Shown: one piece after another, positions 9,296 to 14,311 of the stretch | Layout: the number at the start of each line of letters is the position of its first letter | Numbering within the stretch: the first letter of the stretch is position 1 | Source of the DNA: Candidatus Nanohaloarchaea archaeon | GTDB taxonomy: Archaea; Nanohalarchaeota; Nanosalinia; Nanosalinales; Nanosalinaceae | Length of the DNA: 64,000 nucleotides | Assembly: GCA_013343275.1 (NCBI GenBank) | Contig: CP046106.1 | Coordinates: forward strand, 682,001 to 746,000 | Direction of reading: 5' to 3' | Position numbers and translations under genes: made by a program | The notes under the pieces: generated by a model | Database searches by the model: none | What the model saw: the letters and a program-made list of their open reading frames with translations, nothing else | What the model was told of the DNA's origin: nothing

Positions 9296-10351
9296 ATGCG
9301 GGAAGAAGTATATTCTGGTTCTGTTGAGCGTATTGAAGTAATGGGGACTGAAGACGAAGAGGACTTCCCCTGGATCGAAGAAGATGAGTACAGAGAGCTC
9401 TACAGAAAAATGATGATTGCAAGAAAATTTGATGAAAAGGCCTTCTCACTGCAGAGAAGAGGCGAAATATCCACTTACGCGCCGCATAAAGGACAGGAGG
9501 CCGCTCAGATCGGAGCAGTTTTTGCACTGGACGAGGATGACTGGATTGTGCCTTCTTTCCGCGAATCAGCGGCATTCATACAGAGAGGCGCACCTCTAGA
9601 CAAGATCTTTCAGAGATGGATGGGCGATGCCAACGGCCAGAAAGATCTCTCCGAACTGAATACATTACCTGTAGCAATTCCTGTAGGAACGCAGAATCTG
9701 CATACCGCGGGCCTTGGGATGGCTATGGAGAAGAAAGGAGACGAAAACGCAGTACTTGGGTTCACAGGCGATGGATCGACTTCTGAAGGAGATTTCCACG
9801 AGGCCCTGAATTTTTCAGGAGTCTTCAGCGGCCACTCAGTATTCTTCGTACAGAACAACCAGTACGCGATCTCTATGCCCAGGGAGAAGCAGACCAGGTC
9901 CGAGACGATCGCACAGAAAGCTATCGCATACGGGATCGACGGCATACAGGTCGATGGCAACGATCTGCTGGCTGTGATCAAGGCGGTAGAAGAAGCGCTG
10001 GAAAAGGCCCGTAAAGGAGAGCCAGTCCTCGTAGAGGCCATAACTTACAGGCTGGAGGATCACACTACTTCCGACGATTCGACACGTTACAGAGATGAGG
10101 AGGAAGTAGAAGAATGGAAGGAGAAAGACCCCTTAAAACGCTTCAGAGAATACCTGAAAGAACACGATATCTGGGACGACGAAATGGAAAGCTTCGAGGA
10201 AGAGGCCGAGGAAAAAGTAGATAAAGCTGCCCAGAAGGCGATAGAAGCAGACGACCCAAGCTTCGACGAACTGTTCGACTATGTATACGAGGAGATGCCC
10301 GAGCTGTTACAGGAGGAAAAAGAACAGCTCAGAGAAGAGGTGAAGGAATGA
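9296..10351 (+). CDS. pdhA: Pyruvate dehydrogenase E1 component, alpha subunit
   Basis: 351 aa, a normal E1alpha length. With E1beta it performs the thiamine-diphosphate-dependent decarboxylation of pyruvate (or a branched 2-oxo acid) and acetylates the E2 lipoyl group. The ThDP motif begins GDGSTSEGDFHEALNFSGVF and ends about 30 residues later at NNQYAIS. EDHTTSDDSTRYR near residue 285-300 is the conserved phosphorylation-loop region. The start at 9296 is set by a TATA box at 9261-9270; upstream in-frame codons would lie before the predicted transcription start. First gene of a four-gene operon. Substrate choice between pyruvate and branched acids cannot be settled, but the neighbouring acetate-forming enzyme favours pyruvate. 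Confidence 0.93.
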   Translation: MREEVYSGSVERIEVMGTEDEEDFPWIEEDEYRELYRKMMIARKFDEKAFSLQRRGEISTYAPHKGQEAAQIGAVFALDEDDWIVPSFRESAAFIQRGAPLDKIFQRWMGDANGQKDLSELNTLPVAIPVGTQNLHTAGLGMAMEKKGDENAVLGFTGDGSTSEGDFHEALNFSGVFSGHSVFFVQNNQYAISMPREKQTRSETIAQKAIAYGIDGIQVDGNDLLAVIKAVEEALEKARKGEPVLVEAITYRLEDHTTSDDSTRYRDEEEVEEWKEKDPLKRFREYLKEHDIWDDEMESFEEEAEEKVDKAAQKAIEADDPSFDELFDYVYEEMPELLQEEKEQLREEVKE

Positions 10352-10401
10352 TGAAGATCGCAGATCTTCGCAGAGACGAAAACAGAGGTGTTTTCGAATA
10401 A
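10348..10401 (+). CDS. Candidate 17-codon mini-cistron linking E1alpha and E1beta
   Basis: ATG at 10348 overlaps the E1alpha stop (ATGA). Seventeen codons run to a TAA at 10399-10401 that overlaps the E1beta ATG (TAATG). The frame passes through two perfect hairpins: 10353-10359 with 10363-10369 (loop GCA) and 10377-10383 with 10390-10396 (loop AGAGGT). The second loop exposes the E1beta ribosome site. The peptide, MMKIADLRRDENRGVFE, resembles no family I know. Its likely role is translational coupling, not a functional product. Confidence 0.4.
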   Translation: MMKIADLRRDENRGVFE

Positions 10402-11369
10402 TGGGAGAAAAAATGAATATTGTTGAGGCCGTTAATCAGGCGCTTCACGACGAAATGGACGAAGATGAAAATGTAATTGCATACGGAGAGGATGTAGGAG
10501 AGGACGGTGGAGTTTTCCGTGCGACCGAAGGCCTCCAGGACGAGTTCGGAGAGGATCGCTGTTTTTCGAGTCCTCTGGCCGAGTCAGGGATTGCCGGAAC
10601 TGCTATCGGGATGAGCCTGTACGGTTTCCGGCCGGTAGTTGAGATGCAGTTCTCCGGGTTCTCGTACCTGGCGTTCTACCAGATCAAAGAACACGCATCC
10701 AGGATGAGAATCAGATCCCGTGGCGACTACAACGTGCCGCTTACAGTTCGTGCACCGTACGGAGGAGGAATTTCAGCACTGGAACACCACCAGGAATCGC
10801 CAGAGACGTTCTTCGCCCATTCACAGGGCCTGCATGTTGTAATCCCAAGTACACCGCAGGACACCTACTCTCTGCTCCGTAAATCAATTCAGATGGATGA
10901 CCCTGTAGTCTTCCTTGAACCGAAGAAAATCTACAGAGCCTTCAAAGAGGAAGTCGATACAGAGAAAGAAGTAGATCTAGAACAAGCCCGTATAGTACAG
11001 GAAGGAGAGGACGTAACCCTGATTGCATGGGGCGCAATGGTTCCTGTAGCAGAGGACGCAGCCGAAGAGATCGATGCCGATGTCGAGATAATCGATCCCC
11101 GCACAATTTACCCCGCGGACTTCGATACGATATACGAATCAGTGGAGAAAACCGGGCGCGCAATGGTACTACACGAGGCCCCAAAGAGTGTCGGTTTTGG
11201 AGCAGAGATCGCTACACGCATACAGGAAAACGAAATCTTGAAGATGGAGGCTCCTGTAGAAAGAGTTACAGCACCAGATACTCCTTACCCACTTTACACT
11301 CTTGAAGACTTCTACATGCCGAACAAGGAAAGAGCTGTGAAAGGCCTTGAGAGAGTACTCAACTTCTAG
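10401..11369 (+). CDS. pdhB: Pyruvate dehydrogenase E1 component, beta subunit
   Basis: 322 aa, the normal length of E1beta. It forms the alpha2beta2 E1 with the product of the gene before it. The N-terminus MNIVEAVNQALHDEM and the segment GEDVGEDGGVFRATEGLQ are family signatures, as are SPLAESGIAGTAIGMSLYGF and the C-terminal transketolase domain with GFGAEIATRI. ATG at 10401 or 10413 are both possible; 10401 is favoured because GAGGTG at 10385-10390 is well placed. That site lies in a hairpin loop, which may regulate initiation. Confidence 0.93.
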   Translation: MGEKMNIVEAVNQALHDEMDEDENVIAYGEDVGEDGGVFRATEGLQDEFGEDRCFSSPLAESGIAGTAIGMSLYGFRPVVEMQFSGFSYLAFYQIKEHASRMRIRSRGDYNVPLTVRAPYGGGISALEHHQESPETFFAHSQGLHVVIPSTPQDTYSLLRKSIQMDDPVVFLEPKKIYRAFKEEVDTEKEVDLEQARIVQEGEDVTLIAWGAMVPVAEDAAEEIDADVEIIDPRTIYPADFDTIYESVEKTGRAMVLHEAPKSVGFGAEIATRIQENEILKMEAPVERVTAPDTPYPLYTLEDFYMPNKERAVKGLERVLNF

Positions 11370-11379
11370 GTGATTAAAA

Positions 11380-11442
11380 ATGAAAAATAAAATCAAGAAT
11401 CGAAAGCCGGTTTATCCGGCTTCACATGATCGAACTCTGTAG
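11380..11442 (+). CDS. Candidate 20-codon mini-cistron linking E1beta and E2
   Basis: An ATG at 11380 is preceded by a good ribosome site (AGGTGA, 11368-11373). Twenty codons run to TAG at 11440-11442, directly abutting the GTG start of E2 at 11443. The frame crosses one perfect hairpin (11403-11409 with 11415-11421, loop TTTAT) and ends in a second (11430-11437 with 11445-11452, loop TGTAGGT). The encoded peptide begins MKNKIKNRKP and is basic, unlike the proteome. Ribosomes finishing it would melt the hairpins and could restart at E2. Confidence 0.45.
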   Translation: MKNKIKNRKPVYPASHDRTL

Positions 11443-11452
11443 GTGAGTTCGA
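11403..11452 (+). promoter_or_regulatory. Tandem hairpins covering the E2 start
   Basis: Hairpin one is AAGCCGG/CCGGCTT with a five-base loop. Hairpin two is TCGAACTC/GAGTTCGA with a seven-base loop, and the E2 GTG (11443-11445) straddles its loop and 3' arm. Both stems are perfect. Folding would hide the start codon unless an upstream ribosome opens it. Confidence 0.55.
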
Positions 11453-12900
11453 TTAAATTCGAGTTCCCTGATACCGGCGAAGGAGTAACTGAAGGAAAGT
11501 TCCTGGAATGGAAGATAGATGTAGGTGACAAAGTAGAGGAAGATCAGGTAGTAGGAGAGGCCGAGACAGACAAGGCCGTAGTTGAAATTCCTGCACCTGC
11601 TGATGGAACAGTTAAAGAGCTTATGGCCTCGCCTGGCGACCGTGTAGAGGTCGGCGATGCAATCATGGAGCTTGATACCAGAGGAAGTAACGAAAGCTCC
11701 TCAGAAGAAAGTAATAACTCCCCGGAGGAACAGAGCGAGGCCAAGGAAACAGAAGAAAAAGACACCGAAAACGAAGAGTCAGAAGAACCAGAAGAGGACG
11801 AGAAGGCCTCCGATAACGAAAGTTCTGAAGGCGATATACTTGCACTGCCGAAGGTCAGAAAGCTGGCTGAGGAAAAAGGGGTAGAACTGGCCTCTATCAA
11901 GACAGGTGAGAGAATTACCGAAGAAGAGGTCTTGCAGGCAGCCAGCGGAGAAGGGAGCCAGGAAACAGAGGTGTCCGGAGAGACAGTTTCCGAAGCTGGT
12001 ACAGAGGAGGTAAATGCATCGCCGTCTGTCCGGCAGTTAGCCCGCGAAAAAGAGGTTGATATACAGTCAGTTGAAGGTAGCGGTCGCGGAGGTAAAGTTA
12101 CCCGGCAGGACGTGCTGGATGCTACAGAAACAGAAGAAACATCTGAAGAAGAGGCCTCTACGAGAGAAGAACCGCCTACCGGTCAGAGCAGTGGAGAAGA
12201 TTACTCTGGAGAGGTAGAGCGTGTGGAGATGTCTGGCATAAGGAAAAGTATTGCCAGCAAGATGGAGAAGTCGCGTTTCACAGCACCGCACGTCACCCAT
12301 GTAGAGAAAGCAGATATAACGGAGCTAGCCGAGTTAAGAGACAAAGTCAAGAACGAAGTCGATGCACACCTCACATACCTTCCTTTCGTGATGAAGGCCT
12401 GTACCAAGGCCCTTCAGGACTATCCATCGCTGAACTCGGAACTGGACGAAGAAAATGATACAGTTGTACAGAAAAAGTACTACGATTTCAATATCGCTGT
12501 TGATACCGATGATGGCCTTCTAGTGCCGCGTATTGATTCTGTTAAGGAGAATAACATGGTTGAACTTGCGCAGGATATTGTTGAGAAGGCAGAGGCCGCT
12601 CGTGCCGGGGAGCTGAGCCAGGAAGAGATGAAGCCCGGCACCTTCTCAATCACAAACCTCGGTGTTATCGGCGGAGAGGAGTTCACACCAATTATTAACT
12701 ATCCTCAGGTAGCTATACTGGGGATCGGGAAGATTGGAGAGACTGCAGAAGTGGTTGATGGCGAGGTAAAGCCAAGGACTACTGTCAAGCTGTCATTAAG
12801 CTATGACCACAGAGTTGTCGACGGAGCAACCGCTGCCAAGTTCATGAACGATGTAGTGGAAAATCTGGAGAAGCCTGAAGAGTTGATGGTGAATCTGTAA
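11443..12900 (+). CDS. pdhC: Dihydrolipoamide acyltransferase E2, with two peripheral-subunit-binding domains
   Basis: 485 aa. The lipoyl domain spans 1-80, with the lipoylated lysine K44 in ETDKAVVE. A long acidic linker follows. Then come two peripheral-subunit-binding-like segments, at about 132-167 (ALPKVRKLAEEKGVELASI) and 191-228 (ASPSVRQLAREKEVDIQSV, with GSGRGGKVTRQDV). The catalytic acyltransferase domain spans about 258-485, with the active-site SYDHRVVDG (H455, D459). It transfers the acetyl group to CoA and scaffolds the complex. Most bacterial and archaeal E2 proteins carry one binding domain. GTG start is used; an ATT at 11452 is the only near alternative. It overlaps nothing and is one base from E3. 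Confidence 0.93.
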   Translation: MSSIKFEFPDTGEGVTEGKFLEWKIDVGDKVEEDQVVGEAETDKAVVEIPAPADGTVKELMASPGDRVEVGDAIMELDTRGSNESSSEESNNSPEEQSEAKETEEKDTENEESEEPEEDEKASDNESSEGDILALPKVRKLAEEKGVELASIKTGERITEEEVLQAASGEGSQETEVSGETVSEAGTEEVNASPSVRQLAREKEVDIQSVEGSGRGGKVTRQDVLDATETEETSEEEASTREEPPTGQSSGEDYSGEVERVEMSGIRKSIASKMEKSRFTAPHVTHVEKADITELAELRDKVKNEVDAHLTYLPFVMKACTKALQDYPSLNSELDEENDTVVQKKYYDFNIAVDTDDGLLVPRIDSVKENNMVELAQDIVEKAEAARAGELSQEEMKPGTFSITNLGVIGGEEFTPIINYPQVAILGIGKIGETAEVVDGEVKPRTTVKLSLSYDHRVVDGATAAKFMNDVVENLEKPEELMVNL

Positions 12901-12901
12901 A

Positions 12902-14311
12902 ATGGTCGTAGGAGATATAGCAACAGGAACAGATCTTGTAGTTATAGGAGCAGGGCCTGGAGGGTATTCGGCAGCAATAAGAGCCGCACAGGAAGGCCTC
13001 GACGTCATGCTTGTGGATAAGGAGAAGATTGGGGGAACATGTTTGAACCGGGGATGTATTCCTGCAAAGGCCTTTATCCATGCCTCGAAGTTCCACGAGG
13101 ATATCCAGCACTGGAACGAGATAGGTATCAAGGCAGAATGCGAACACATCAAGTTCGAGGATATCGCAGAATGGAAGGATGAAATAGTGGAGAAGCTGGA
13201 CAGAGGTGTTGAGCAAATCCTTGATCACGAAAACGTGGAGTACAAGCAGGGGGAGGCCAAGTTCATTGATTCTAACACTGTCAGAATTGAGGAAGAGCAC
13301 CGTACCGACAAGATAGAGTTCGATAACGCAATAATTGCAACCGGCAGCTCCCCGATAGAGATTCCGGGCCTCGAGTTCGATAAAGACAAGGTGATCTCCT
13401 CCCGCGAACTCCTGAACCTGAAAGAAGTACCTGATGAGATAGTAGTCGTTGGCGGAGGATACATTGGTATGGAGGCCGTAACCAAGTTCTGCAAGTTCGG
13501 CGCCACTGTCAAAGTCGTTGAGGCCCGGGATAGAGTCCTGGCGAACTTCGATGAGGAAATAGTCAACCATCTCCAGGAAGTTACAGACGAGTACAGCGAC
13601 GAAATCTATACCTCTGCAGAGGCACAGGAAGTGAGATATGAAGACGACAAGGCCGTACTGGTGGCAGAACAGGATGGAGAACAGCTAGAGATTGAGGGAG
13701 ACTACATACTGGTGGCCGCAGGCAGAACAGCAGAACCAAACCTCGAAAGCCTTGAACTTGACAAAACAGATGTCGAAGTTGAAGAAGGATTTATACAGGC
13801 CGACAAACAGATGAAGACCGGTGACAGCAATATTTTCGCAGTAGGAGATGCTGTAGGACAGCCGATGCTCGCACACAAGGCCTACAGAGAAGGTAAAGTT
13901 GCTGCAGAAGTAGCTGCAGGCAAGAAATCTGCCTTCGACAACCAGTACATACCAAAGGCCATGTACACCGACCCAGAAGTCGCAACAGTAGGCCTTACAC
14001 CTGAAGAGGCCGAAGAAAAATACGGCGAAGTGACGACCGGAAAATTTCCATTCACAGCATCCGGTAGGGCATTGACCACGACAAAGACTGACGGCTTTGT
14101 ACGTGTAGTTGCGAGAGAAGACGGAAAGATGGCGGGAGTGCAGATAGTAGGTGCGCGGGCGTCCGACATGATCGCAGAAGCTACGCTGGCCCTAGAAATG
14201 CAGGCCTATTTAAGCGACGTAGCAAATACAATACATGCACACCCCACCTTCCCTGAAGCATTGGGAGAGGCCTGTGAGGATGCACTGGATAAATCAATAC
14301 ACAAAGCCTGA
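12902..14311 (+). CDS. lpdA: Dihydrolipoamide dehydrogenase (E3)
   Basis: 469 aa, the standard length. It reoxidises the E2 dihydrolipoyl group and reduces NAD+. The FAD-binding GAGPGGYSAAIRAAQ, the redox disulfide GGTCLNRGCIPAKA, the NAD-binding VVGGGYIGMEAVTKF, the second FAD motif IFAVGDA and the C-terminal dimer-interface HAHPTFPEAL (with the His-Glu catalytic pair) are all present. ATG at 12902 starts one base after the E2 stop. It completes the PDH complex. Confidence 0.96.
   Translation: MVVGDIATGTDLVVIGAGPGGYSAAIRAAQEGLDVMLVDKEKIGGTCLNRGCIPAKAFIHASKFHEDIQHWNEIGIKAECEHIKFEDIAEWKDEIVEKLDRGVEQILDHENVEYKQGEAKFIDSNTVRIEEEHRTDKIEFDNAIIATGSSPIEIPGLEFDKDKVISSRELLNLKEVPDEIVVVGGGYIGMEAVTKFCKFGATVKVVEARDRVLANFDEEIVNHLQEVTDEYSDEIYTSAEAQEVRYEDDKAVLVAEQDGEQLEIEGDYILVAAGRTAEPNLESLELDKTDVEVEEGFIQADKQMKTGDSNIFAVGDAVGQPMLAHKAYREGKVAAEVAAGKKSAFDNQYIPKAMYTDPEVATVGLTPEEAEEKYGEVTTGKFPFTASGRALTTTKTDGFVRVVAREDGKMAGVQIVGARASDMIAEATLALEMQAYLSDVANTIHAHPTFPEALGEACEDALDKSIHKA

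Follow-up and report, generated by a model that had tools for sequence, protein, structure and literature searches.

The closest described systems are of four kinds. Mycobacterial interspersed repetitive units (MIRUs; Supply et al., 1997; described in PMC12548453 and PMC2734929) are reported to insert at start codons and to carry an internal ORF coupled at -4 (PMC12548453). The synthetic bicistronic design, or nonfunctional upstream ORF, is a second (PMC5995908; PMC13255528), termination-reinitiation has been described in archaeal overlapping gene pairs (PMC6728339; PMC10666635), and REP-like palindromic repeats form a further class (PMC2817692).

Here we analyzed a PDH operon from a Candidatus Nanohaloarchaea archaeon, located in a window of 64,000 nucleotides (the whole stretch of DNA under analysis; contig CP046106.1, positions 682,001 to 746,000). 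A first-pass annotation had described a mini-ORF before the E2 gene and another of the same design before E1-beta, reading both as relay leaders without a described archaeal example; our literature search, which was not exhaustive, likewise found no archaeal description of such a relay arrangement. Our analysis indicates that the E1-beta/E2 mini-cistron is likely a sequence-diverged copy of a nanohaloarchaeal two-hairpin repeat, gained (probably by insertion) at a start codon inside the operon, which would relay ribosomes by termination-reinitiation.

Two mini-ORFs in the PDH operon

The operon contains the following features:

9296..10351, + strand: E1-alpha (Pfam PF00676)
10337..10342, + strand: SD GAGGTG of the first mini-ORF, within the end of E1-alpha (from sequence)
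10348..10401, + strand: first mini-ORF, MMKIADLRRDENRGVFE, with a -4 overlap with the E1-alpha stop and a -1 overlap (TAATG) with E1-beta
10353..10369, + strand: hairpin 1 of the first element, GAAGATC-GCA-GATCTTC (covariance models R1 and R2, covariation)
10377..10396, + strand: hairpin 2 of the first element, with the SD GAGG in its loop (SD-in-hairpin scan, family covariance model)
10401..11369, + strand: E1-beta (Pfam PF02779, PF02780)
11368..11374, + strand: SD of the E2 mini-ORF, AGGTGAT, 5 nt 5' of ATG 11380 (from sequence)
11380..11442, + strand: mini-ORF before E2, ATG 11380, 20 codons (MKNKIKNRKPVYPASHDRTL), TAG 11440-11442
11404..11422, + strand: hairpin 1, AAGCCGG-TTTAT-CCGGCTT (fold z -3.5)
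11427..11455, + strand: hairpin 2, TGATCGAACTC-TGTAGGT-GAGTTCGATTA, 11 bp (fold z -5.2)
11440..11446, + strand: second SD, TAGGTGA, a repeat of TAGGTGA at 11367-11373 (from sequence and comparison)
11443..12900, + strand: E2, 2-oxoacid dehydrogenase acyltransferase (Pfam PF00198, PF00364, PF02817), start GTG 11443 or ATT 11452
12902..14311, + strand: E3, dihydrolipoamide dehydrogenase type (Pfam PF07992, PF02852)

The SD, the 20-codon frame and the two hairpins reported earlier before E2 are all present, and the folds of both hairpins beat shuffles. The SD AGGTGAT overlaps the E1-beta stop TAG (11367-11369), and at the other end GTG 11443 directly abuts the TAG of the mini-ORF, as had been stated, with mini-ORF, TAG and E2 all in one frame. 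Hairpin 2 has a fold of -14.6 kcal/mol, matched by none of 200 shuffles, and its loop TGTAGGT contains the mini-ORF's TAG together with part of the second SD. The entire junction has a fold z of -3.8, and of 514 gene starts sampled over 464 kb of the 915,886-base genome, the E2 start has the strongest local fold (-27.5 kcal/mol); the fold at the E3 junction is unremarkable (z 0.44).

The copy before E1-beta, itself a seed, matches the family covariance models with 49.9 bits (R1) and 57.4 bits (R2). The two mini-frames, at 10348 and 11380, do share one design, and this design looks like a translational relay, in agreement with the first-pass annotation. A search of Rfam returned no family above the gathering threshold (best match 21.8 bits, cut-off 36). 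A C/D box RNA reading of the ATGATGA at 10348 was discarded, its sole support being a sub-threshold match to sR17.

A family of two-hairpin repeats with coupled mini-ORFs

A scan for hairpins carrying an SD just upstream of a start codon identified repeated junctions of one design (e.g., ATGAAAATCGCAGATTTTCGGAGTAGCAGAAAACAAGGTGTTTTCAACTAATG). A first covariance model was built from 11 seed junctions of the window's genome with N-padded rows and detected further copies both there and in other genomes of the family; a second, from 41 copies, was run over 28 genomes of the phylum. At an E-value of 0.01 (these E-values being rough), the window's genome has 21 matches and four other genomes have 13-17 each; 7 of the 19 family genomes and all five genomes of family f4 have none, and two genomes of family f5 have one or two apiece. 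Of 115 matches that we inspected, 82 carry an SD in hairpin 2 and are followed by a gene; these SD-type copies are spread over 13 nanohaloarchaeal genomes, and the other approximately 33 are SD-less.

The two-hairpin structure of the family is real. In the alignment of 41 copies, pairing holds in 99% of cells, and 12 of 14 pairs vary at both positions. The covariation score reaches 0.382, compared with 0.122 in shuffles and less than 0.08 in slid controls, for an alignment that was fitted to the structure and in which hairpin 2, and not hairpin 1, had been used for seed picking. In the seed set, four of the seven pairs of hairpin 1 covary.

Same-strand genes flank 79 of the 82 SD-type copies. 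The genes located 3' of copies include those for uL2, uL24, eS27, eS24, uL30, uS14, a KH protein (uS3), RNase PH (exosome), Spt4, GatB, uL10, RNA polymerase A'', proteasome alpha, PheT (an assignment just below the Pfam cut-off), E1-beta, and two ATP-synthase-type subunits (A and B by sequence). The SD-less repeats, CGAAANNN..NNNTTTCTG-N-CAGAAANNN..NNNTTTCGA, lie between genes in any orientation (L148-L160 in the window's genome; L196, L199-L201, L207-L210 and L218-L223 in relatives) and are a REP-like class within the two-hairpin family.

The mini-ORF stop lies at -4, -1 or 0 nt relative to the next start in 67 of the 82 copies, overlapping or abutting it as expected for termination-reinitiation. 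Shuffled sequences gave a mean of 4.0 and a maximum of 10 coupled copies (200 shuffles, preserving letters and not dinucleotides), and wider limits raise the observed number to 76 of 82. Overlaps are also found at the 5' end, where the mini-ORF ATG overlaps the upstream stop at -4 eleven times and at -1 nine times.

Some copies depart from this layout. Longer variants with extra hairpins occur at L220 (G007), L241 (G006) and L246 (G010); by eye, L220 and L241, which come on top of the 76, have 35-codon frames that run across four hairpins and stop at the next start or 1 nt short of it. A copy on the minus strand (L145; G000:C1:26722-26780) has intact hairpins, an altered SD (CAGGATTG) and TAACT in place of TAATG, with no gene start behind it, and is possibly a relic.

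To place the E2 copy, we scanned junctions between same-strand genes 35-130 nt apart in 464 of 916 kb, using gene calls from a simple script. A coupled mini-ORF with hairpin 1 and a hairpin with an SD in its loop was found at 11 of 143 junctions, E2 included, whereas 2,860 shuffled gaps yielded none. Coupled mini-ORFs without hairpins were at chance level (6 versus 8.4), and the enrichment of SDs in loops over all places was weak, the signal appearing only in combination with gene starts and the two-hairpin layout. The E2 copy has this layout in full, with a coupled mini-ORF and both hairpins between two same-strand genes; its mini-ORF stop is inside hairpin 2, whereas in the other copies the stop follows hairpin 2.

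At the sequence level, the covariance models do not recognize the E2 copy (4.8 and 2.1 bits), and a search of its own genome for DNA relatives of the insert returned only itself and one 15-nt match, so the insert is not one of several identical DNA copies. Both results would fit a mini-ORF that arose by chance or evolved independently of the repeat family. We consider such an origin unlikely, since the full layout never arises in the shuffled gaps, the other 10 of the 11 layout matches have the family design, and the hairpin arms resemble those of members by eye: GAAAGCC of the E2 hairpin is like L158, and GAACTC..GAGTTC is like GAAACTC..GAGTTTC of the uL23 copy in G007. Taking into account this layout match and by-eye likeness together with the lack of recognition by sequence, the E2 copy is a probable diverged member of the family, or at least appears built to work alike.

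Filled and empty junctions in relatives

Comparison with the congener G010 revealed clean presence or absence exactly at start codons. For uL2, G010 reads GATGTAAG-ATGGGAAGC and the window's genome GATGTAAGA-[ATGAAGAAAATCGCAG...GAGGTGTTTTCAACTA]-ATGGGAAGT; uL24, uS14 and uL30 show the same filled/empty relationship, and the E1-beta junction is also filled in the window's genome and empty in G010. At uS14, near-identical copies are present in two genera (L141 in G000 and L177 in G007), and G010 is empty, a pattern that points to precise loss, transfer or gene conversion; with the copy common to G007 while G010 is empty, loss or transfer also occurs. At uS3 of G007 and G008, the hairpins are lost and the mini-ORF with its -1 overlap is kept (MNEIKSSRRNSQMNHIAKGEVQ, MRKSEVVSVIHTQGENQ). 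This persistence of the frame beyond the hairpins suggests that selection acts on the coupled frame and less on the hairpins, whose role may lie in insertion, RNA stability or gating of the SD.

We also looked for candidate means of mobility. The Y1 transposase (PF01797) is absent from the 19 family genomes, with positive controls, which rules it out as the mobilizing enzyme; a search for a viral carrier in IMG/VR with a stringent pattern, which was not exhaustive, gave no match.

These patterns bear on the possibility that the copies are SD-less palindromic repeats, similar to REP elements, which land by chance at gene starts and whose mini-ORFs are by-products without a translational role. 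The patchy presence of copies would agree with this, and so would the roughly 33 copies that have the same hairpins but no SD, which lie between genes and show no orientation preference. Nevertheless, it is a rather improbable account, as coupled frames greatly exceed those in shuffles, SD copies are strictly oriented, and at uS3 of two genomes the coupled frame survives the loss of the hairpins. As to why coupled copies persist, we lean toward insertions that were made harmless through coupling and later co-opted, over coupling devices that were selected as such. More broadly, the data allow us to propose, tentatively and as somewhat less than an even chance, an archaeal family of mobile RNA elements that would target start codons and survive insertion into essential operons because they bring their own complete relay for ribosomes (a mini-ORF and an SD displayed by a hairpin), some copies being later kept as devices that couple subunit genes.

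The first-pass annotation had proposed that the two leaders may set subunit ratios of the PDH complex, and had suggested a comparison of PDH operons. We found E1-beta in 12 relatives of the family, 11 of which have a readable E1-beta/E2 junction. None of these 11, the congener included, has a mini-ORF at this junction, and the E1-beta stop is 0 to 16 nt from the E2 start (in G010, ...TTC TAGGTGATCCAAAA ATC CAG TTC...). The SD found at the same position in relatives serves E2 directly (TAGGTGAT followed by ATT, ATC or TTG). As G010 lacks the insert, the extra ~73 nt are specific to the window's lineage. G010 lacks the E1-alpha/E1-beta element too (GAGGTGGATCAGTAATG), and none of the other relatives displayed showed it. 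In the genome outside the 11 (L005, G006), about 800 nt of other sequence separate E1-beta from E2, unlike in all other relatives.

The E1-beta/E2 mini-frame is thus not a conserved PDH device. A pair of PDH-specific leaders that fixes the ratio of E1-beta to E2 is very unlikely: the occurrence of two copies of a single design in one operon is what such a pair would predict, but the PDH junctions of the congener and of the other readable relatives lack the element, and copies of the element also stand before ribosomal, ATPase, proteasome and other unrelated genes.

A function for the encoded peptides is highly improbable. Similar peptides do occur in some copies (MKIADFR.., MYENQRFSG..), but the mini-ORFs cross hairpin 1 in each of the three codon phases (38, 25 and 13 copies), giving three unrelated peptide types, and decayed copies retain the frame and not the peptide. 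Since peptides differ among the phases while RNA pairing and coupling persist, it is the RNA and the coupling that are kept.

The position of the E2 start was compared by aligning 12 genomes, the window included, on the motif PDTGEG. In 10 of the 12, an ATG, GTG, TTG, ATT or ATC occupies one shared start column, and in the remaining two an ATG lies two codons earlier. In four relatives (L002, L009, L011 and L013) the codon in this column is ATC or ATT, preceded by a strong SD; an in-frame stop lies 0-6 codons before it, and no ATG, GTG or TTG falls in between. E2 in these nanohaloarchaea thus appears to use non-canonical ATT/ATC initiation. In the window, ATT 11452 falls in the shared column, 6 nt past GGTG, and in 72 of 76 measured family copies a GGNG is located 7-10 nt upstream of the start. 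Given the shared column, this spacing, and the overlap of GTG 11443 with the second SD (TAGGTGA, 11440-11446), ATT 11452 is a serious candidate and may be the true start of E2 instead of GTG 11443. Therefore, of the earlier claim that the E2 GTG start is buried in a hairpin, the location of the GTG in hairpin 2 stands and its role as the start is doubtful. The spacing between mini-ORF and E2 would be the canonical 0 with GTG 11443, or a gap of 9 nt with ATT 11452. Production of an N-terminally extended E2 from ATG 11380 by readthrough of the TAG, for which the single frame across mini-ORF, TAG and E2 speaks, is barely credible, as no relative has such an extension and the mini-ORFs of other copies commonly end out of frame with the gene.

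A candidate ribosome relay and its known counterparts

In the scheme that we infer from these sequences, the element would recruit the pre-existing SD for its own mini-ORF, in most cases of 14-20 codons, and provide a new SD in the loop of hairpin 2, followed by a new start. A ribosome that finishes the upstream gene, or is recruited at the first SD, would translate the mini-ORF, opening hairpin 1 and then hairpin 2, which would free the second SD; it would then terminate on or beside the next start and re-initiate there. The mini-ORF would in this way bridge a gap of ~45-75 nt, over which reinitiation in archaea would otherwise scarcely occur. In Haloferax, reinitiation is clearly reduced when the gap is 13-14 nt and almost abolished when it is 22-23 nt (PMC10666635), and with such a short-gap requirement the 73-nt insert would cut coupling unless bridged.

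If this is true, E2 and other start annotations in nanohaloarchaea would need revision. Complete genomes with filled and empty sites, along with a cultivated consortium member that has copies (SVXNc), make two points testable, namely the passage of ribosomes between archaeal cistrons and the tolerance of insertions in essential operons.

The element resembles REP-like repeats in being short, palindromic and interspersed, with SD-less copies between genes in any orientation, but its SD-bearing copies keep an open coupled frame and the family genomes lack the REP-associated Y1 transposase. With archaeal overlapping gene pairs it shares stop/start overlaps of -4 and -1 and an association with subunits of complexes, and it differs in interposing a mini-ORF between two real genes. 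With MIRUs, the likeness extends to short (40-100 bp) interspersed repeats, a location at start codons in operons, a coupled internal ORF overlapping the next gene, and empty sites in relatives. Unlike MIRUs, the element is archaeal, has two covarying hairpins with an SD in the loop of hairpin 2, uses spacings of -4, -1 and 0, and was not seen in tandem arrays. The likeness is one of layout; as the phyla are unrelated, convergence is assumed. Finally, the synthetic bicistronic design has a first SD, a short leader ORF that itself contains a second SD, a stop that overlaps or adjoins the target start, and ribosomes that open the structure around the second site, all of which recall the arrangement proposed here; the element differs in being natural, repeated in genomes and conserved in its hairpins. 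Should the relay operate as proposed, it would represent a natural archaeal counterpart of this synthetic design, with many replicate copies at orthologous junctions.
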